Below are positions 4,540 through 43,075 of a DNA stretch of 64,000 nt, piece by piece. The notes under the pieces were generated by a model. That model was not told where the DNA came from and did not search any database. It saw only the letters and a program-made list of their open reading frames with translations. Within the stretch, counting starts at the first letter, position 1; the number at the start of each line of letters is the position of its first letter. Made by a program: the position numbers and the translations under genes. The stretch is from assembly GCF_943373825.1 (NCBI RefSeq), contig NZ_CALSBP010000001.1:930001-994000 (forward strand). Direction: 5' to 3'. Source of the DNA: Aquimarina spinulae. GTDB lineage: Bacteria; Bacteroidota; Bacteroidia; Flavobacteriales; Flavobacteriaceae.

Positions 4540-7500
4540 ATGAGAAATACTAAGATACAACAGTATATAATTTTGCTTGTCCTAATGATGAGCAGTACAA
4601 TGATGTTCTCCCAGTTTGGGGGTGGAGATCCTGTTTTGGGAGATTGTGGTATTACTTCTTACCGTGATGCCGATGGTGATGGTTGGGGAGATTATAACAA
4701 CAAAACCTGCCAGCTTACCATTCCCAGTGGATATGTTTCTAAATACGGAGATATTAATGATAATAATCAATGGATTACCAATATCCCACCTAAGAACTTT
4801 TATAGAGATGCGGATGGAGATGGTTGGGGTAATCCCAATATAGTAACCTATCGTAGTGTACGCCCTTCTGGTTATGTAACCAATAATAGTGATAGAGATG
4901 ACAGTACCAGTCTGATTACCAATATTGCACCTCGACATTTTTATAGAGATGCCGATGGCGATGGATATGGTCATCCTGGTATAAGCACCTATCGCAGTGT
5001 ACAACCCTCTGGATATGTAACCAATAGTAGTGATTGTAATGATGGCAGTAGTGCCATACACCCTAATACAGTATGGTATAAGGATAGTGATGGTGATGGT
5101 TTTGCGATTGCAACAAAAAAGCAATGTAGCAGCCCGGGAGCAGGATATACCCTTAGTGTGCTTCCGGTTACCGATTGTCATGATGGCGATAGTAGTTTAA
5201 ACCCTAATACGGTTTGGTATCCTGATGGTGATAGTGATGGCTGGGGAACGGCCTCTGATTTGGGAGCGGTAAAGAGACAATGTAGCCAACCAACCGGTTA
5301 TACACAAAAGGTAGGAGATTGTAATGATCATAACATTAATATCCACCCCGAAACCGTTTGGTATAAGAATAGTGATGGTGATGGTTTTGCCAGTACCTCT
5401 AAGGTGCAATGCATCAATCCGGGAGCAGAGTATACTTATGAAGAATTACCTCTGGGAGATTGTAATGATAGTGATGCTGCTATCCACCCTAATACGGTTT
5501 GGTATAAGAATAGTGATGGGGATGGTTTTGCCAGTACGACCAAAACCCAATGTAGTAATCCGGGAGCTGGTTATAGCTTAACGGTAAAACCACTGGGGGA
5601 TTGTGATGATAGTAATGCAGCTATCCACCCCAATACGGTTTGGTATAAGAATAGTGATGGTGATGGTTTTGCCAGTACGACCAAAACCCAATGTGCTCAT
5701 CCAGGTAGCGGCTATAGTTTAACGGTAAAACCCCTGGGAGATTGTGATGATGGTAGTGCTGCCATCCACCCTAATACGGTTTGGTATGCAGATACCGATG
5801 GAGATGGTTTTGGGGATCCTAATGTTTTAAAACAACAGTGTATTCAACCTGCGGGATATGTATTGAATAATAATGATCAATGTCCAGAAAAATCAGGCCC
5901 CCAACAAGGCTGTATTTTTATTCCTCACCAGCTTTATCTCTCTAATGAGAACTATGTGTTTACCCGGGTGTATCAAAAGCCCATGACCTCACCAGATGAG
6001 CTACATTATAATAAAGATGTGGTAGAGAGTGTTACTTACTTTGATGGATTGGGCAGAACCAAACAACAAATAGCGATCAAAGCTTCACCCGATGGTAAAG
6101 ATATTGTAACCCACATCGAGTATGATGAGTATGGCAGGCAAGACAAACAATACCTGCCTTTTGAGTCGAATACTAGCGTTGGCAGTTATAAAGATGTTGA
6201 TATTGTTAACGATATTAACCAGTATTATGAAACTAAGTACGCCGATGATTTTATCGGAGTAGCAAAAGATCATAAGGATTTTAATGCCTATTCAGAAAGT
6301 GTGTTTGAAGCTTCTCCTCTTAACAGAGTAGTAGAACAGGGAGCTCCGGGTAAGGATTGGAAGGCTAATAAAGATAGTGACACAGATCATACGATTAAAT
6401 TTAATTGGGATACCAATATCGCTAATGAAGTGGTTACTTTTAAGGTAAATTTTGCCAACCCTGGTGATACAGAAACCCCAGCCTTAGTACAAGATGGTTT
6501 TTACCCTGCCAATCAGTTGTATGTTACCATCACCAAAGATGAGAACTGGACTGCGACAGATGGCAATAACCATACGACCAAAGAGTACAAGGATAAACAA
6601 GGTAGAGTGATCTTAAAAAGAACCTATGCTTCGACAAGCTCAGCAACCCCAGAGGCGCATGATACCTATTATGTATACGATAGATTTGGGAATTTAACCT
6701 ATGTAATCCCTCCTAAAGTAACTACAAATGACGGTGTATCAGATAATGAGTTATCTGAATTGTGCTATCAATACAAATACGATAATCGTAATAGGCTTAT
6801 CGAAAAGAAGATCCCTGGTAAGGATTGGGAGTATATTGTGTATAATAAACTAGACCAACCTATTCTTACTCAGGATGCCAGTTTAAGAAAAGAAATGACG
6901 GGTAAGGCATGGGATCAATGGTTGTTTACTAAATACGATGGCTTTGGTAGAGTGTTGTATACAGGAACGGTTATTAATGGGAGTAACAGAAAAGTTATTC
7001 AGAACAGAGTAAATGACGCTACAACCCCACAGTATGAGTCTAAACTAGATTCTCCTATTACTATTGGGGGTACAACTGTTTATTATTCTAAAGATGCATA
7101 TCCAACAAGTATCTATAAGGTGTATACCATCAATTATTACGATGATTATACTTTTGATCTTGTAGGACTAACCAATCCCGGTACCGTATATGGTGAGACT
7201 GTTCTTAACCATACAAAATCTCTACCCACAGGAAGTAAAGTGCGAGTGCTAGACACCAATGATTGGATTACTACCGTTACCTGGTATGATCAAAAAGCAA
7301 GACCTATATATATCGCAAGTAAAAATGAGTATCTAAACACTACAGATATTATAGAAACCAAGTTGGATTTTATAGGTAAGGTAGAAGAAACTACTACTAG
7401 ACATAAGAAAGGTAATAATGCTGAAATTGTTACCATAGATACGTTTACGTATGATGATATGGGTAGACCGTTGATACAAACCCAAAAGATCAATGATCAA

Positions 7501-9312
7501 GGGGTTGAAACTATTGTTGAAAATAGGTATGATAAATTAGGACAGTTAGAACGTAAGAAAACAGGAGGTGGATTACAAGAGGTGGATTATACCTATAATG
7601 TACGAGGTTGGCTTACTAAGATCAACGATCCTAATACAGCTCTTGGAAACAAGCTTTTTGCTTTTAAAATCAATTACAATACACCACAACATGGAGCTAC
7701 GGCATTGTTTAATGGTAATATCTCTGAAACTACTTGGAAAACTGCAAATGATAATGTAGAGCGACATTACAAATACAGCTATGATGCTTTAAACCGAATT
7801 ACCGATGCAAATTATAATAGTCAGGATAATAGTGAGCAGGATTGGTTTAGGGTTTTTGGGATTACCTATGATAAGAACGGTAACCTAAAATCATTAAAAA
7901 GACATAAAAAAGAAAATGTGGCATTGGATTACCTATCCTATACTTATGATACAGGGAATAAACTCTTAACTGTAGAAGAACAAATCGATGGAGCCAGTGG
8001 GTTTGAAGATGGTACCAATACCAATGATGATTATACCTATGATGCCAATGGTAATATGACTATAGATCAAAACAAAGGGATCACAAGCATTATCTATAAT
8101 CATTTAAACTTGCCTAAAACAGTTACAGTAAATAATGCTTCTCATAATGGAAATATTACCTATATTTACGATGCCACTGGGGTAAAATTAAAAAAGATTA
8201 CAACAGAGGGAAGTTCTTTAACAACAGAGTATGCCGGGAATTATGTTTATAAGAATGGCGACCTGGAGTTCTTTAACCATCCAGAAGGTATTGTAGAACA
8301 TGAAGCAGATGGATATAAGTATGTATACCAGTTTAAAGATCACTTAGGGAATATTAGGTTATCGTACAAAGATGCTGATAAGAATGGTGCTATAACGCAA
8401 AGTGAGATCGTGCAGGAGAAGAATTATTATCCCTTTGGGATGACTCATTCTGGATATAATACTACATTACGCGGGAGAAATCATAATTATGGTTTCGGTA
8501 ATAAAGAAGAACAAGATGAACTTAGTTTAGCATGGTTAGACTTTGGAGCTAGGAATTATGATGCTTCTTTAGGTAGATGGATGAATATTGATCCATTAGC
8601 AGAAGAGTTTTATACTTACTCACCATACAATGCAATGATGAATGACCCAATTGGATATATTGACCCAGATGGAAGGTCAGCAGAATGGGTCCCTGGTACA
8701 GATGGAAAAGCTATAACTTATTCTGAAGATGCAAACGGGAATTTAACTGTAAGTGATAATGCTACCGCTGACACAAAACAGATAGTTGCAGGTATTAATG
8801 AGTCTGGTAGTGAAACTGCCAAAAATCAATTTAAAGGAGTTGCTGATAGCGAAGGAAAAGTAAATCTTGTTGTTAATAAAACAGATACTGGAGCAAATGG
8901 TATATCTTTAAATGGTTTACATCAACCACACGATGCAGATGGTAATGCTTTAAATTGGGATTCATCAACACAAAGTTTTGATGGTGTAGCCGATACATTT
9001 GTTGATTCAAATGGAAATACAGTTTATACAGAAGCTACAATAACAATTTTTGAATCAAATTTTAATAATGATTCTCAGAATAAATTTGGAGTATTGGGAA
9101 AAACAAGTGTTTGGGATAGTGGTTTAACTAAGTCTAACACAATGACAGGAACATTTGCACACGAAGTTGACCATAATTTAAATCAAAATACTGTTCAAGC
9201 AGTTATAGACCGAGGAAACGGAGTAGAAAACAATTATAGTGTTGAGCCACCTGCGTATAAAGTCCAGAAACAAGTTCATCAAGAAATTAAAGATAATCGT
9301 AAGAAAAATTAA
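4540..9312 (+). CDS. RHS core protein with calcium-type repeats and C-terminal HExxH toxin tip
   Basis: A 1590-residue protein with a signal peptide (MRNTKIQQYIILLVLMMSS). Residues about 35-450 hold nine MopE-like units with DxDGDG loops, likely metal-binding. DUF6443 begins near residue 470 (ENYVFTRVYQ), followed by YD repeats. The RHS core runs from DHLGNIRLSYKD (about 1266) to GRWMNIDPLAEE and YIDPDG (about 1378). The 210 residues after the core are the variable tip. They contain HEVDH at 1541-1545, a zinc metallopeptidase signature, and a downstream Glu (E1569 in SVEPPAY) placed as a possible third ligand. By analogy with polymorphic toxins the tip is inferred to be a peptidase effector sheltered by the YD shell. 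A lipoprotein gene follows after 7 bases and may encode immunity. Target and delivery route are unknown. Confidence 0.85.
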   Translation: MRNTKIQQYIILLVLMMSSTMMFSQFGGGDPVLGDCGITSYRDADGDGWGDYNNKTCQLTIPSGYVSKYGDINDNNQWITNIPPKNFYRDADGDGWGNPNIVTYRSVRPSGYVTNNSDRDDSTSLITNIAPRHFYRDADGDGYGHPGISTYRSVQPSGYVTNSSDCNDGSSAIHPNTVWYKDSDGDGFAIATKKQCSSPGAGYTLSVLPVTDCHDGDSSLNPNTVWYPDGDSDGWGTASDLGAVKRQCSQPTGYTQKVGDCNDHNINIHPETVWYKNSDGDGFASTSKVQCINPGAEYTYEELPLGDCNDSDAAIHPNTVWYKNSDGDGFASTTKTQCSNPGAGYSLTVKPLGDCDDSNAAIHPNTVWYKNSDGDGFASTTKTQCAHPGSGYSLTVKPLGDCDDGSAAIHPNTVWYADTDGDGFGDPNVLKQQCIQPAGYVLNNNDQCPEKSGPQQGCIFIPHQLYLSNENYVFTRVYQKPMTSPDELHYNKDVVESVTYFDGLGRTKQQIAIKASPDGKDIVTHIEYDEYGRQDKQYLPFESNTSVGSYKDVDIVNDINQYYETKYADDFIGVAKDHKDFNAYSESVFEASPLNRVVEQGAPGKDWKANKDSDTDHTIKFNWDTNIANEVVTFKVNFANPGDTETPALVQDGFYPANQLYVTITKDENWTATDGNNHTTKEYKDKQGRVILKRTYASTSSATPEAHDTYYVYDRFGNLTYVIPPKVTTNDGVSDNELSELCYQYKYDNRNRLIEKKIPGKDWEYIVYNKLDQPILTQDASLRKEMTGKAWDQWLFTKYDGFGRVLYTGTVINGSNRKVIQNRVNDATTPQYESKLDSPITIGGTTVYYSKDAYPTSIYKVYTINYYDDYTFDLVGLTNPGTVYGETVLNHTKSLPTGSKVRVLDTNDWITTVTWYDQKARPIYIASKNEYLNTTDIIETKLDFIGKVEETTTRHKKGNNAEIVTIDTFTYDDMGRPLIQTQKINDQGVETIVENRYDKLGQLERKKTGGGLQEVDYTYNVRGWLTKINDPNTALGNKLFAFKINYNTPQHGATALFNGNISETTWKTANDNVERHYKYSYDALNRITDANYNSQDNSEQDWFRVFGITYDKNGNLKSLKRHKKENVALDYLSYTYDTGNKLLTVEEQIDGASGFEDGTNTNDDYTYDANGNMTIDQNKGITSIIYNHLNLPKTVTVNNASHNGNITYIYDATGVKLKKITTEGSSLTTEYAGNYVYKNGDLEFFNHPEGIVEHEADGYKYVYQFKDHLGNIRLSYKDADKNGAITQSEIVQEKNYYPFGMTHSGYNTTLRGRNHNYGFGNKEEQDELSLAWLDFGARNYDASLGRWMNIDPLAEEFYTYSPYNAMMNDPIGYIDPDGRSAEWVPGTDGKAITYSEDANGNLTVSDNATADTKQIVAGINESGSETAKNQFKGVADSEGKVNLVVNKTDTGANGISLNGLHQPHDADGNALNWDSSTQSFDGVADTFVDSNGNTVYTEATITIFESNFNNDSQNKFGVLGKTSVWDSGLTKSNTMTGTFAHEVDHNLNQNTVQAVIDRGNGVENNYSVEPPAYKVQKQVHQEIKDNRKKN
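4642..5887 (+). repeat. Nine tandem MopE-like repeats inside the RHS gene
   Basis: Nine units each carry a DxDGDG-type loop followed by GY and, in most, a DCxD motif and HPNT. Units 6, 7 and 8 start at 5356, 5497 and 5638 and unit 9 at 5779, an exact 141-bp (47-codon) period. Units 7 and 8 are nearly identical in DNA (VWYKNSDGDGFASTTKTQC in both), pointing to recent duplication. Units 1 and 2 lack the DC pair. The same repeats create several long open frames on other strands that are not genes. Confidence 0.85.
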
Positions 9313-10206: not shown

Positions 10207-10297
10207 ATTTGCACTACTTAACATTGCTTAGAAGCTATTAAATAAGGGTTTTGTATTGCTACATGGGTCTAATTGGTGCTTGGTTATATTTGCAGCT

Positions 10298-10954
10298 ATG
10301 AATTGTAAAAATTGTAACCAATCAAATTGCATAAAGCGAGGTAAGAGAAATGGTAAACAACGCTATTTCTGTAAAGATTGTCATACTTCATTTCAAAACT
10401 CATACTCTTATAAAGCATATCAAACCACAACAGATGCTTTAATTAAAAGTTTACTCAAAGAAAGCTGCGGTGTTTTGAGTATTGCTAGAATTATAGGTAT
10501 TTCAAAAAACACAGTATTATCCAGGATGCTAAAAATTAGCCATCAAATTAAAGTTCCATGTTTTAATAGGTTAGGTTGCAAATTTGAGGTCGATGAGCTG
10601 TGGAGCTTTATTGGCAGTAAGGATAATGTAACCTGGATTACCTATGCTATAGAAAGAGAGACCAAAAGTGTTGTTGATTTTTTTGTAGGTAGAAAAACAA
10701 AAGATACGATCAGGCCTTTGATAGATAAATTATTGCTATTACATCCTAAGAGCATTTATACCGACCGATTAAATATTTATCCGGGACTGATCCCTAAAGA
10801 AATTCATAAAGTGTTTCGGTATTGTACCAACAGGATAGAGCGTAAAAATTTAACCTTACGTACTCATATTAAAAGAGTATCAAGAAGAACGATTTGTTTT
10901 TCGAGAAACAAAAGATATCTCATAGCACATTTGCGAATCTATTTTTGGGGATAG
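10298..10954 (+). CDS. IS1-family transposase
   Basis: 218 residues from the ATG at 10298. An N-terminal zinc ribbon uses C3, C6, C25 and C28; a helix-turn-helix lies around residues 55-80. The catalytic part shows the IS1 DDE triad: D99 in EVDELWSF, D156 in YTDRLNIY and E181 in RIERKNLTLRTH. The ending RRTICFSRNKRY is also IS1-like. Unlike classical IS1 of enterobacteria, where InsA and InsB are joined by frameshifting, this is one continuous frame. All key residues are present, so it may be active. A TATATTTG box at 10285-10292 could be its promoter with an extremely short leader. An upstream in-frame ATG (10256) lacks support. Confidence 0.9.
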   Translation: MNCKNCNQSNCIKRGKRNGKQRYFCKDCHTSFQNSYSYKAYQTTTDALIKSLLKESCGVLSIARIIGISKNTVLSRMLKISHQIKVPCFNRLGCKFEVDELWSFIGSKDNVTWITYAIERETKSVVDFFVGRKTKDTIRPLIDKLLLLHPKSIYTDRLNIYPGLIPKEIHKVFRYCTNRIERKNLTLRTHIKRVSRRTICFSRNKRYLIAHLRIYFWG

Positions 10955-39376: not shown

Positions 39377-40551
39377 GCCTTAAAAATTTAAATTTTGAAA
39401 CACAAGCGGTAAGAACGCAAACGGATAAAACACAGTTTTTAGAGCATTCTACTCCAATGTATTTAACCTCGGGCTTTGTTTTTGAAGATGCAGAAGAGAT
39501 GAGAGCTGCTTTTGCAGAAGAGAAAGAACGAAATCTATATAGTCGCTTTAGTAATCCTAATACAACAGAATTTGTAGATAAGATTTGCAAATTAGAAGGA
39601 GCAGAAGACGGGTATGCATTTGCAACGGGTATGGCAGCAGTGTTTTCTACATTTGCTGCATTGTTAGATGCTGGTGATCATATTGTTTCGGCTCGGTCTG
39701 TATTTGGTTCTACGCATACTTTGTTTACCAAATATTTGCCAAAGTGGAATATAGAAACCAGTTATTTTAGAGTAGATGAGGTGGATAAAGTAGAAAGCTT
39801 GATCCAGCCCAATACAAAAATTATATATGCAGAATCTCCAACAAATCCGGGAGTAGATGTTTTAGATTTAGAATTGTTGGGAGCGATAGCAAAAAAACAC
39901 AACGTGCTTTTGGTTATTGATAATTGTTTTGCGACTCCATATTTGCAAAACCCGATTAAGTTTGGTGCAGATTTAGTAATTCATTCTGCAACTAAGCTAA
40001 TTGATGGCCAGGGAAGGGTTCTGGGAGGAGTGACTGTTGGTAAAAAAGAACTGATAAGAGAAATTTACCTCTTTTCGCGTAATACCGGACCATCACTATC
40101 GCCTTTTAATGCGTGGATATTGTCTAAAAGTTTAGAAACCTTGGCGGTTCGGGTAGATCGTCACTGTGAGAATGCACTAAAACTAGCAGAGTTTTTAGAA
40201 TCACATCCTAAAATAAACTGGGTGAAATATCCATTTTTGAAATCTCATCCACAATATGAAGTTGCCAAAAAGCAAATGAAAATGGGAGGTAATGTTGTTG
40301 CTTTTGAAGTAAAAGGAGGTGTACAAGGAGGTAAAACTTTTTTTAATAGTGTACAAATGTGTTCTCTGTCTGCCAATCTTGGTGATACCAGAACCATAAT
40401 TACACATCCCGCTTCAACAACACATAGTAAACTAGCCGAAGAAGATAAGCTTGTTGTTGGGATTACAGATGGAATGGTGCGTTGTTCTGTGGGGTTAGAG
40501 CATATCGATGATGTTATATCGGATATAGAACAAGCATTAGAAAAAATATAG
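39373..40551 (+). CDS. metZ: O-succinylhomoserine sulfhydrylase-type PLP enzyme
   Basis: 392 residues, MetZ/MetB length. The PLP lysine is in VIHSATKLIDGQGRVLGG, and the phosphate-binding region is GYAFATGMAAVFSTFAALLD. It opens NFETQAVRTQTDKTQFLEHS, common in O-succinylhomoserine sulfhydrylases. It would make homocysteine directly from an activated homoserine and sulfide. Having both metY and metZ in the window suggests use of two acyl-homoserines, different sulfur donors, or different conditions; only metY follows a SAM riboswitch. Cystathionine gamma-synthase activity cannot be excluded. Confidence 0.85.
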   Translation: MSLKNLNFETQAVRTQTDKTQFLEHSTPMYLTSGFVFEDAEEMRAAFAEEKERNLYSRFSNPNTTEFVDKICKLEGAEDGYAFATGMAAVFSTFAALLDAGDHIVSARSVFGSTHTLFTKYLPKWNIETSYFRVDEVDKVESLIQPNTKIIYAESPTNPGVDVLDLELLGAIAKKHNVLLVIDNCFATPYLQNPIKFGADLVIHSATKLIDGQGRVLGGVTVGKKELIREIYLFSRNTGPSLSPFNAWILSKSLETLAVRVDRHCENALKLAEFLESHPKINWVKYPFLKSHPQYEVAKKQMKMGGNVVAFEVKGGVQGGKTFFNSVQMCSLSANLGDTRTIITHPASTTHSKLAEEDKLVVGITDGMVRCSVGLEHIDDVISDIEQALEKI

Positions 40552-40587
40552 AAGCTATAAAACTTCTTGTAGTATTAGTATAAAATG

Positions 40588-40624
40588 AAAAATGCTCTGA
40601 AAATTAATTTTTCAGAGCATTTTT
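40588..40624. terminator. Strong bidirectional terminator
   Basis: AAAAATGCTCTGAAAA (40588-40603) and its exact complement (40609-40624) enclose a 5-base loop. It ends metZ and also the convergent peptide genes. Confidence 0.8.
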
Positions 40625-40650
40625 TGATGAAAATTAATTAATTTTTACGG

Positions 40651-40842
40651 TTATATAAAATGACAACGCCCGTTTGACATGCATGTACCTGCATCACAAA
40701 ATAAACGTACTCCACCTCTCCAGGTACAGCATTGATATCCGTTTTGATAACAACCAAAACCTCTTGCTCCCGAACCAGAGATTGAACTTTGTTCGGTTTT
40801 ACTTAATAAGGAAACTCCTTTTAAATTTAAAATTTTTTTCAT
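40651..40842 (-). CDS. Six-cysteine precursor-like peptide 1
   Basis: 63 residues from the ATG at 40842. The leader MKKILNLKGVSLLSKTEQSS resembles the short leaders of Bacteroidota bacteriocin-like and natural-product precursors, which usually end in Gly-Gly; here the matching place reads ISGSG. The C-terminal part has six cysteines, C31, C38, C39, C49, C54 and C60, in the pattern C-x6-CC-x9-C-x4-C-x5-C. It is a close paralog of the peptide 13 bases upstream. Three disulfides in a knot-like fold, or thioether modification, are possible. No modifying enzyme or peptidase-transporter is nearby. The longer frame starting at 40878 runs into the neighbour and is not preferred. Confidence 0.65.
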   Translation of the reverse strand: MKKILNLKGVSLLSKTEQSSISGSGARGFGCYQNGYQCCTWRGGVRLFCDAGTCMSNGRCHFI

Positions 40843-40855
40843 AAAATAATTTGTT

Positions 40856-41041
40856 TTAAGAATACACACAATATCCATTAGGTAGGCATTGCCCTACATC
40901 ACAGAAATTTCCGTTACCAGTTTCTCTACAGCACTGATTTCCGTTTTGAAAACAAGGAGTCCCGCTGCGCGAACCCAAAATTTGACTTTGATCATTTTTA
41001 CTTAATAGGGTAACTCCTCCTAAGTTTAAAACTTTTTTCAT
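40856..41041 (-). CDS. Six-cysteine precursor-like peptide 2
   Basis: 61 residues. The leader MKKVLNLGGVTLLSKNDQSQ is parallel to that of peptide 1, followed by ILGSRSG in place of a double glycine. Cysteines C30, C37, C38, C47, C52 and C58 follow C-x6-CC-x8-C-x4-C-x5-C, the same frame with one residue less in the long loop. Both genes share the upstream sequence ATTCTTAAAACAAATTA, so the duplication included the leader region; for peptide 1 this sequence lies at the end of the peptide 2 gene. A role as bacteriocin, signal or defensin-like secreted peptide is inferred from architecture only. Confidence 0.65.
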   Translation of the reverse strand: MKKVLNLGGVTLLSKNDQSQILGSRSGTPCFQNGNQCCRETGNGNFCDVGQCLPNGYCVYS

Positions 41042-41129
41042 AATGTAATTTGTTTTAAGAATGAATAGAATTGCGCCTTTAAATCGGGGTATTATTGGTT
41101 AAATGAACAATTCTATAGATTTAGTTTCT

Positions 41130-41137
41130 CAAATTTA
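41130..41137 (-). promoter_or_regulatory. Candidate -7 box of the peptide genes
   Basis: The reverse complement TAAATTTG matches TAnnTTTG. It would give a leader of about 80 bases before peptide 2. No good -33 element was found. Confidence 0.4.
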
Positions 41138-41223
41138 AAATTTGAATAAAGGATATATACCCCCGTAAACAGGGGAATATGTGTTTTTGATTATAAAAAC
41201 AGGTTTTAGGAAAATGAGCAAAT

Positions 41224-41253
41224 AAAAAAACTGAGGAATTCCTCAGTTTTTTT
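41224..41253. terminator. Strong bidirectional terminator
   Basis: CTGAGG and CCTCAG flank AATT, with seven A before and seven T after. It ends the minus-strand lipoprotein gene at 41281 and isolates the peptide genes from it. Confidence 0.8.
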
Positions 41254-41280
41254 ATTCAAAGAATTTAGAAGCTTATGGCC

Positions 41281-41823
41281 TTATTTTTTTGTCAGAGTAA
41301 AAATTTGACTTCCGGTAACTTCAAAAGTAATTCCTTGTTGTTCTACCGTTTCTTTGATGTCTTTTTTTATACTCATGGTTTGTGCTGTTAATGCAATAAT
41401 ATCAAAAGACGCATCTTTTTCGGCAACAGTAGTAATTAATTTGGTCCCATCTATTTTCCACTCCCCAGCTCCAATAAAATCTGGAATTGATTCTTCATAA
41501 TCAATAGATTGTGTAGGGATAGTTATTTTTGCTACTAATGTAAACCCTCCAGAGCTAATAAAAGTATTGGGTTTATCGGTATCAGAAACTTCTGTAAAAG
41601 TTGCTTCTGCAGTATAATCTTTACCCGATATAGAATAACTGCCACTCACAGGTATGTTTTCAATAGTAGCAGTAACTTTCCCATTTTCAGATTTGACATC
41701 TGAAAGACTCCACTCGCCAGGGATTAAGGATTGATCAATTTCAATTGGAGAATCATCATCGTTGTTACAAGAAACAAATAGTAGGGTACTTGCTAAACAT
41801 AAAAGCATTGCAAATCTTTTCAT
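41281..41823 (-). CDS. Lipocalin-like lipoprotein
   Basis: 180 residues with SPII signal MKRFAMLLCLASTLLFVSC followed by an acidic NNDDDS stretch, typical of Bacteroidota surface lipoproteins. The body begins IPGEWSLSDVKSENGKVTA and has GEWKIDGTKLITTV, the repeated GxW strand pattern of lipocalin-like domains. It ends FTLTKK. No ligand or function can be assigned. It is a single-gene unit with its own terminator, convergent with no gene and divergent from the sulfate operon. Confidence 0.65.
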   Translation of the reverse strand: MKRFAMLLCLASTLLFVSCNNDDDSPIEIDQSLIPGEWSLSDVKSENGKVTATIENIPVSGSYSISGKDYTAEATFTEVSDTDKPNTFISSGGFTLVAKITIPTQSIDYEESIPDFIGAGEWKIDGTKLITTVAEKDASFDIIALTAQTMSIKKDIKETVEQQGITFEVTGSQIFTLTKK

Positions 41824-41988
41824 TTCGATTATATATTTTGGGTTAATATTACTTTTATCAACGAGTTAGAAATTCACATATTGTCAATTTTTCTAGACAA
41901 AATCTCTTTTTATGTGATTTTTAAGGATAATTAATAAAAGTTTAATAGGATGTTCTTCAATAAATTATACAAAGATTACAGGGTTGAC

Positions 41989-42013
41989 TTAATAATCTAC
42001 TAAGTTACTAGGG
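41989..42013 (+). promoter_or_regulatory. Operator-like element, distal copy
   Basis: TTAATAATCTACTA, six free bases, then TAGGG. The same 14-mer, gap and 5-mer occur 115 bases downstream at the transcription start. Lies about 105 bases upstream of the -7 box. Confidence 0.5.
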
Positions 42014-42094
42014 TTTTTGTTGAAAATATCATAATTCTTACGATTTTCTACAAGAACTTTTGAGATTTTTATGCTTTAAACAAAATATTATATA

Positions 42095-42102
42095 TACATT
42101 TG
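42095..42102 (+). promoter_or_regulatory. -7 box of the sulfate operon
   Basis: TACATTTG, an exact TAnnTTTG match, 48 bases before the DUF2061 start codon. There is no clear -33 TTG, which would be consistent with need for an activator. Transcription would start near 42108, inside the proximal operator-like element. Confidence 0.5.
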
Positions 42103-42103
42103 T

Positions 42104-42128
42104 TTAATAATCTACTATTCCGATAGGG
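42104..42128 (+). promoter_or_regulatory. Operator-like element, proximal copy, with inverted repeat
   Basis: TTAATAATCTACTA, six bases, TAGGG: identical in layout to 41989-42013. This copy also forms an imperfect inverted repeat over 42109-42137 (AATCTACTATTCC against GGGTAATAGATT) followed by TTTTTT. It overlaps the predicted transcription start, so it may be a repressor site; as RNA it would also make a small terminator-like hairpin. Confidence 0.55.
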
Positions 42129-42149
42129 TAATAGATTTTTTGAAAAAAA

Positions 42150-42416
42150 ATGATTTTAGATCAAATGATATTAGATAAAGTAGCTACACAGAAAACAACG
42201 TATCAGGATGATAAAACCTCTGAGAAACCAATACGTAGTATCGCAAAAGCAGTAAGCTGGAGAGTCGTGGGTACATTAGATACATTAATAGTGTCTTATG
42301 TGTTAACGGGAGAGATCGCTCTTGCTACTTCGATTGCATCTATTGATTTTGTGACAAAAATGATTCTGTATTTTTTTCACGAAAGAATTTGGAATCGTAT
42401 TAAATGGGGGAAATAA
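42150..42416 (+). CDS. DUF2061 membrane protein
   Basis: 88 residues. The domain runs from IRSIAKAVSWRVVGTLDTLI to MILYFFHERIWNRIKWG and contains two short hydrophobic segments, so the protein is probably in the inner membrane. DUF2061 has no proven function; its usual place at the head of sulfate-assimilation operons, as here, points to a role linked to sulfate or sulfite handling. First gene of the operon; the next start is 32 bases downstream. A second ATG six codons in is possible. Confidence 0.88.
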   Translation: MILDQMILDKVATQKTTYQDDKTSEKPIRSIAKAVSWRVVGTLDTLIVSYVLTGEIALATSIASIDFVTKMILYFFHERIWNRIKWGK

Positions 42417-42448
42417 TTGCTATAGTAGAAAAACAAGTATAGTAGGCT

Positions 42449-43075
42449 ATGAGTTTAACAGGAAAAGAAATAGAAAATTTAAATAAATCTCTAAAGGATA
42501 AAACACCTTTAGAAATTGTACAATGGGCAGTTTTAAATGCGAAAACTCCGGTTGTAACTACTAATTTTAGACCATATGAGGTTGCAATTCTTAATGTTTG
42601 TTCAAAAGCATTGTCAGATATTCCGGTAATATGGTGTGACTCTGGATACAATACTCCAAACACCTATAGACATGCCGAAGAGGTTATTGATATGCTAGCA
42701 CTAAATGTTAAATTATATGTTCCTAAACAGACCACAGCACATAGAGATGTAACTATGGGAATTCCGGATATTGATGATCCCAAACATAAAATTTTTACAG
42801 AACAAGTAAAATTAGAACCATTTAGAAGAGCAATGTCGGATTTTACTCCTGATGTTTGGTTTACAAACCTAAGGAAAGGACAAACGGCACTTAGAGATTC
42901 GCTGGATATTGTAAGTATGGGTAAAGATGGAATTTTAAAAGTAAGTCCATTTTACTATTACAATGATGAAGAGTTAGATGTGTATTTAGAAGAACATAAA
43001 TTACCTAACGAATTTAAATATTTTGATCCAACTAAAGTATTGGAAAATAGAGAGTGTGGATTACATACTAACTAA
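42449..43075 (+). CDS. cysH: (Phospho)adenylylsulfate reductase, cluster-free type
   Basis: 208 residues. It reduces activated sulfate to sulfite with a thiol donor. IWCDSGYNTPNTYRHAEEVI and LRKGQTALRDSLDI are conserved substrate-site segments, and the catalytic Cys lies in the C-terminal ECGLH. The protein has only three cysteines and none of the paired cysteines that bind the [4Fe-4S] cluster in APS reductases. By the usual rule that means PAPS, yet no APS kinase gene (cysC) is seen in the operon and CysN carries no kinase domain. The substrate is therefore open. Tightly linked with cysD. Confidence 0.88.
   Translation: MSLTGKEIENLNKSLKDKTPLEIVQWAVLNAKTPVVTTNFRPYEVAILNVCSKALSDIPVIWCDSGYNTPNTYRHAEEVIDMLALNVKLYVPKQTTAHRDVTMGIPDIDDPKHKIFTEQVKLEPFRRAMSDFTPDVWFTNLRKGQTALRDSLDIVSMGKDGILKVSPFYYYNDEELDVYLEEHKLPNEFKYFDPTKVLENRECGLHTN

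Follow-up and report, generated by a model that had tools for sequence, protein, structure and literature searches.

A tandem pair of six-cysteine precursors in Aquimarina spinulae and its probable maturation by a distantly encoded oxidase fusion and C39 exporter

The closest described relatives in kind of the locus reported here are the bacteroidetocins, proposed as class IIf, for which the accessible part of PMC6671954 reports that deletion of a thiol oxidoreductase attenuates toxin activity. Leaders of the double-glycine type follow a rule, set out in the accessible part of PMC6363468, with Leu at position -12, a hydrophobic residue at -4, and Gly-Gly, Gly-Ala, or Gly-Ser at -2/-1. Aquimarina-specific clusters resembling those of ribosomally synthesized and post-translationally modified peptides have been reported (accessible part of PMC10734526). 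Here, we describe a tandem pair of genes for six-cysteine precursors in a 64,000-nucleotide stretch (the window, G000:C1:930001-994000) of a 6.24-Mb Aquimarina genome. We consider it probable that the pair encodes precursors of exported, disulfide-bonded, likely bacteriocin-like peptides, which a fusion of C39-like, VKOR, and DsbA domains would oxidize in trans with the leader still on and a C39 exporter would then cleave and export. The pair itself had been proposed from the letters of the window, and both open reading frames (ORFs) are present with the cysteine spacing described in that original prediction:

40856..41041 (stop included), minus strand: gene 1, six-cysteine precursor of 61 residues, from the ORF list and conservation in orthologs
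40970..41041, minus strand: gene 1 leader, 24 residues ending in ILGS, cleavage predicted after Gly-Ser from the alignment and the rule in the accessible part of PMC6363468
40859..40969, minus strand: gene 1 predicted mature peptide, 37 residues, C-x6-CC-x8-C-x4-C-x5-C
41046..41062, minus strand: 17-base sequence ahead of gene 1, one of two identical copies
40651..40842 (stop included), minus strand: gene 2, six-cysteine precursor of 63 residues when counted from the ATG of the leader (the mechanical ORF begins 12 codons upstream of it, at 40878)
40771..40842, minus strand: gene 2 leader, 24 residues ending in ISGS, from the alignment
40654..40770, minus strand: gene 2 predicted mature peptide, 39 residues, C-x6-CC-x9-C-x4-C-x5-C
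40847..40863, minus strand: 17-base sequence ahead of gene 2, overlapping the end of gene 1

The two proteins are 56% identical and their genes are separated by 13 bases. The leaders are alike, although calling them near-identical was generous (17/24 residues in a pairwise alignment), and the duplication does reach upstream of the start, since the same 17 bases precede both start codons. The leaders had also been described as bacteriocin-like but without a Gly-Gly site. The first part agrees with the family consensus, MKKILNLxGVQKLSKxxQxxIKGA, in which, counted back from the final Ser/Ala, Leu13 falls at -12, Ile21 at -4, and Gly23 at -2; L13 and G23 are invariant and I21 is present in at least 90% of the 78 sequences of alignment A3. 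The second part needs correcting because a site of this type is present as Gly-Ser, and the accessible part of PMC6363468 places both Gly-Ser and Gly-Ala alongside Gly-Gly. With Leu(-12) and Ile(-4) in register, the Gly-Ser end is, by its sequence, a recognized variant of the double-glycine-type leader.

Orthologous loci indicate how the pair has been maintained. Gene 1 is encoded in 6/6 loci (L060-L065) and gene 2 in L060, L061, L062, and L064, being absent from the ORF list of L063 and not found in L065 by the comparison script. In 10/10 comparisons with the window (six orthologs of gene 1 and four of gene 2), the nonsynonymous rate in the core was below the synonymous rate, with small counts in each. 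These are genuine genes rather than chance ORFs, and the changes between orthologs are mostly silent. The same neighbor genes flank both peptides in L060 and L064, and gene 1 alone in L063 (these three loci make up the flank comparison, the flanks of L061, L062, and L065 not being listed). Since L060 and L064 keep both peptides between the same neighbors, the gene pair is old.

Neither gene has a match in Pfam or NCBIfam at E up to 10, and Rfam has none in window 39500-42500. The pair belongs to a family whose census rests on genome scans. A two-sequence profile at E up to 0.1 gave 27 matches in the pair's genome, the pair included, a few of which may be spurious (L014, L015, and L017, all under E 0.1, carry an internal stop); in the wider sample it matched 50/91 genomes and 6/25 genera, weakly beyond the genus. 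With a larger profile, 41/395 genomes and 5/109 genera of an order-wide sample were matched, many of these matches having the leader but not the six-cysteine core; among loci inspected, the clear six-cysteine members with a Gly-Ala or Gly-Ser end (G[AS]) beyond the genus are L207 and L208 (genomes G258 and G124). The leader pattern applied to the fetched loci yielded 96 distinct peptides, 86 with six cysteines, 9 with four, and 1 with two. Leaving out 16 with a Gly-Gly end or another cysteine number, there are 80 distinct six-cysteine peptides with a non-Gly-Gly leader end, arranged in tandem arrays or singly; the two of the window are among them, as are near-identical copies between species, and A3 comprises 78 of the 80 (two left out). 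Judged by sequence, this is a multigene family with a common double-glycine-type leader and divergent cores.

All 80 have C-x4-C between cysteines 4 and 5, while the start of the pattern varies (C-xn-CC in 33, CC-xn-C in 47). The cysteine order of an inhibitor cystine knot is C-C-CC-C-C. The proposal that the peptides are knot-like is so far unsupported: the cysteine order differs, being C-CC-C-C-C in the pair and C-xn-CC-C-C-C (33/80) or CC-xn-C-C-C-C (47/80) in the family. No solved structure matched a predicted model of the peptide in a fold search, from which a new fold does not follow, and the one match in a profile search of the PDB, NFAP at E 2.2, is at chance level.

Other genes accompany six-cysteine arrays. 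The pair's genome has a five-peptide array at G000:C3:765634-767199, and at L075:5617-8217, also in that genome, a large protein with an endonuclease I domain and a Por secretion tail lies by a six-cysteine array. Similar large proteins, recognized by eye from their N termini, lie by arrays in L066, L067, L069, L070, L071, and L261, with acetate kinase-like genes (by eye) on the other side in several loci; we take the endonuclease I-like gene to be synteny. A second tandem array, of four cysteine-containing peptides with Gly-Gly leaders, lies near the six-cysteine array in L071 (14799-15822).

It had been noted that no known modifying enzyme is close to the pair, and we too recognized no maturation gene when reading the surrounding ORF lists by eye. 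Maturation had accordingly been ascribed to distant genes or to disulfide formation alone; we can now name distant candidates, a C39 exporter and the C39-like/VKOR/DsbA fusion, both by inference. The genes serving the pair would be located elsewhere in the genome. A C39-like domain that lacks the catalytic cysteine, carried by the membrane fusion enzyme, would bind the leader; the DsbA-like domain, reoxidized by VKOR and quinone, would form the disulfides before the leader is removed; and a C39 peptidase-ABC (ATP-binding cassette) exporter acting with HlyD would cut the leader after Gly-Ser and export the peptide.

The fusion is a protein of ~530 residues joining the C39-like domain to VKOR and DsbA. 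In its predicted model the N-terminal fold matches C39 domains of the LahT/PCAT1 type, and the VKOR core matches 4nv2 and 4nv5. Its alignment, A4, comprises 29 of 40 fusion-like rows, the 11 dropped being fragments or having a long alternative start (two of these, L163 and L170, have a cysteine within the first 10 residues of that start). Family-averaged hydropathy gave five clear membrane segments; a sixth, weak one at 218-236 is added from the predicted model and the match to the VKOR fold, and for L238 the script found five. On the six-segment reading, one helix precedes the VKOR core and one follows it, and the C39-like domain, the VKOR cysteines, and the DsbA domain are predicted to lie on one side of the membrane. 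On that side, the counted flanks and loops (87 residues) have 14.5 Lys+Arg per sequence, about half of them in a single stretch after the last helix, versus 1.1 (24 residues) on the other, and the two conventional four-helix VKORs that constitute the whole topology control have the opposite pattern. Under the positive-inside rule, the positively charged side of a membrane protein faces the cytoplasm, and VKORs facing the cytoplasm exist in archaea. The charge bias, read by this rule, suggests that the active side of the modeled fusion faces the cytoplasm. Such an orientation would explain why an oxidase carries a leader-binding domain, given that the leader is lost on export.

The distribution of VKOR and of the peptides is consistent with this assignment. 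Candidates were scored per genome, up to 16 in the order-wide peptide scan, 10 in the order-wide VKOR scan, and 3 in the phylum fusion scan. VKOR was found in 44/52 genomes of the genus, and in the 51 also scanned for peptides, these occurred in 41/43 VKOR-positive versus 1/8 VKOR-negative genomes (Fisher 2e-6; p 5e-4 in near-complete genomes). Across the 395 genomes of the order, VKOR was present in 41/41 profile-positive versus 32/354 profile-negative genomes (5e-36, relatedness uncorrected). G027 offers a small set, with four profile matches (one read as a six-cysteine precursor), one C39 with an adjoining HlyD, one VKOR match, and no match to LanB or SPASM.

Proximity points the same way. 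Outside the pair's genome, 36/122 profile matches have VKOR within 5 kb, spread over 17/40 other positive genomes, compared with 4/122 near LanB, all in one genome. Surroundings were read for 40 of the 75 VKOR matches of the genus: 18/40 regions contain peptides found by the leader model (58 in all; the training loci include the VKOR-linked array of the pair's genome), versus 0/20 random regions, drawn from five genomes of the genus. At the level of the phylum, the fusion profile matched 41/395 genomes and 13/171 genera, and a cysteine-rich double-glycine ORF adjoins the fusion in 18/20 loci (a phylum sample with the pair's genome included; 5/5 beyond the order) versus 2/60 random 4.5-kb pieces, the random control being the 20 regions of the genus and not a phylum-wide set. 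Of 30 such fusion-adjacent ORFs, 29 have an even cysteine count after the leader.

Several observations weigh against our reading. The pair lies far from both the C39 exporter and the VKOR fusion and is thus linked to them through its family, not through its position. The genomes are related and the co-occurrence tests carry no phylogenetic correction, and VKOR is also found in the 32 profile-negative genomes of the order. LanB, used as a control enzyme, co-occurs too (31/41 profile-positive versus 27/354 negative genomes in the order; peptides in 38/40 LanB-positive versus 4/11 LanB-negative genomes in the genus), so enzyme presence alone partly marks peptide-rich genomes; the VKOR link is seen both within LanB-positive (31/31 versus 14/27, p 6e-6) and within LanB-negative order genomes (10/10 versus 18/327, p 3e-12). 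There was no leader-model peptide in 22/40 VKOR-centered regions, and G319 alone has a match near VKOR in genus g5. A link of the peptides with C39 or radical SAM genes had been put forward as a check: C39 does track them in the genus (42/47 C39-positive versus 0/4 negative genomes), with p 0.13 in near-complete genomes, and three C39 exporter matches in the pair's genome are candidates for its exporter; SPASM showed no significant link (p 0.14). As for a killing role, the net charge of the gene 1 core is 0, the gene 2 core is almost constant across four relatives even as synonymous substitutions build up, a constancy not expected of a toxin in an arms race, and no immunity gene was identified for the pair. 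The near-fixed gene 2 core argues for a conserved target.

Two C39 loci of the pair's genome show what else lies near such exporters. In L085 (G000:C2:2211001-2231000), a LanB match lies by a C39 exporter with several Gly-Gly-leader peptides, and there is a second VKOR gene, whose fusion match is interrupted by a stop. In L084 (G000:C3:684001-704000), a C39 exporter is clustered with double-glycine peptides of several kinds, of which some are rich in glycine and poor in cysteine, and with a 406-residue protein that is LanC-like by eye.

Bacteriocin-like interbacterial activity is, by analogy, the most likely role. The best-surviving alternative, which we nevertheless think unlikely, is that these are signaling or other non-killing exported peptides, acting for example in kin recognition or host interaction. 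It would fit the constancy of the gene 2 core and the failure to identify an immunity gene, the upstream lipocalin-like lipoprotein seeming to belong to another unit; toxins, though, are at least as good a match for large sets of divergent cores that share one type of leader, and the bacteroidetocins, the nearest tested analog, kill (accessible part of PMC6671954). The features around the pair that bear on this are as follows:

41281-41823, minus strand: Lipocalin_4 lipoprotein gene upstream of the pair, present in 3/3 listed orthologous loci (L060, L063, and L064)
41219..41258, minus strand: terminator-like hairpin between the lipoprotein gene and the pair
41130..41137, minus strand: TAnnTTTG motif, kept in 7/7 aligned upstream regions, window included
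40588..40624, minus strand: terminator-like hairpin past gene 2

The motif resembles the Bacteroidota -7 box. A hairpin scan of 1.1 kb found five hairpins, two of them weak and inside gene 1, versus 0.6 expected in shuffles. As a terminator-like hairpin divides the pair from the lipoprotein gene, the pair probably forms a transcription unit of its own. The lipoprotein was considered as an immunity protein and set aside in view of this hairpin and of its BSAP-5i match, which scores 17.5 against a 150-bit cut-off and spans residues 1-54, probably just the lipoprotein start. Elsewhere in the window, 4540-9312 encodes a 1590-residue protein that is YD/Rhs-like by eye and whose N-terminal repeats are of type YRDADGDGWGDPN, and an ORF at 10256-10954 resembles an insertion-sequence transposase (IS1-like by eye).

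A second, rather improbable alternative is that the VKOR fusion serves only the adjacent Gly-Gly-leader peptides and that the six-cysteine G[AS] group is oxidized after export by general periplasmic or extracellular chemistry. Consistent with it, six-cysteine G[AS] arrays were not beside VKOR in the genus loci read, and the array of the pair's genome adjoins the endonuclease I-like gene. Yet the two kinds of leader are alike, a leader model trained mostly on G[AS] sequences finds the VKOR-adjacent peptides, and G027 combines a six-cysteine G[AS] peptide with a single VKOR match. Finally, thioether-crosslinked peptides of the lanthipeptide or sactipeptide type, made by distant LanB or radical-SAM enzymes, are very improbable: LanB occurs in 41/52 genus genomes (one match in the pair's, on another contig), shares the co-occurrence described above, and leader models for lanthipeptides or grasp-with-spasm peptides give weak matches to a few family members (best E 0.0028), but LanB is missing from 10/41 profile-positive order genomes where VKOR is missing from none, is absent from G007 and G027, both with peptides, and is rarely near the peptides, SPASM is unmatched in the pair's genome and in 26/52 of the genus (other radical-SAM types were not searched), and the cores average 4.1 Ser+Thr per six cysteines (six or more in 19/78).

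Beyond oxidation of this pair by the fusion, we tentatively entertain a broader scheme, with the odds against it: Bacteroidota may have a leader-guided disulfide enzyme facing the cytoplasm, whose inactive C39 domain would capture precursors and whose inverted VKOR-DsbA would oxidize them before export, one trans-acting set serving a scattered repertoire that includes the pair. The fusion enzyme is the most novel part. If the scheme is true, disulfides join the leader-directed modifications, and many orphan cysteine-rich "bacteriocin-like" genes of Bacteroidota gain a maturation route; a single set of enzymes could account for the way a genome maintains dozens of dispersed precursors that have no biosynthetic genes nearby. 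The fusion would be usable as a handle for genome mining, and the system could serve the production of small disulfide-rich peptides.

Set against known systems, the parts of this proposal are each partly familiar. Titles and abstract openings, a coverage outside which most subscription papers fall, contained no C39-VKOR fusion or six-cysteine family, which is weak evidence of novelty; the accessible parts of PMC10352776 and PMC11278639 contribute nothing decisive. NF047798 (leader_Chryseo, "bacteriocin-like protein") likewise describes a short leader, and 30/78 family members match it weakly (best E 0.011); its cut-off is exceeded by one Chryseo-type peptide, which comes from a different family of the order. 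In contrast, the pair is unmatched by this model at E up to 10, and the model, of 18 residues, does not cover the core. LahT/PCAT1-type C39 domains, as described in the accessible part of PMC6363468, share the leader rule and the fold of the fusion's N terminus, whereas in the fusion this domain is without the catalytic cysteine and has an oxidase, not a transporter, as its partner. The Synechococcus VKOR (4nv2 and 4nv5; VKORC1/thioredoxin protein) has, like the fusion, a VKOR core followed by a thioredoxin-fold domain with the redox cysteines kept; the fusion additionally has a C39-like domain at the N terminus and a first membrane helix, and its charge pattern suggests an orientation opposite to that of VKOR-thioredoxin fusions.

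The bacteroidetocins, as far as the accessible part of PMC6671954 describes them, share with the pair their occurrence in Bacteroidota and a small precursor with a double-glycine leader. They use a C39 peptidase-ABC exporter and a thiol oxidoreductase, for which the pair has the equivalents proposed above as candidates; the C39-like/VKOR/DsbA fusion is set beside the bacteroidetocin oxidoreductase by its presumed role. Their leader has 15-16 residues ending in Gly-Gly versus 24 ending in Gly-Ser in the pair, bacteroidetocins A and B have four similarly placed cysteines versus six, and theirs is a four-gene cluster with the membrane protein, thiol oxidoreductase, and C39 exporter adjacent, versus a pair with no recognized local machinery. 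We keep the pair apart from the bacteroidetocins because leader length, cysteine number, and gene cluster all differ; by analogy, its peptides may nonetheless work like them, as exported, disulfide-bonded products dependent on an oxidase.
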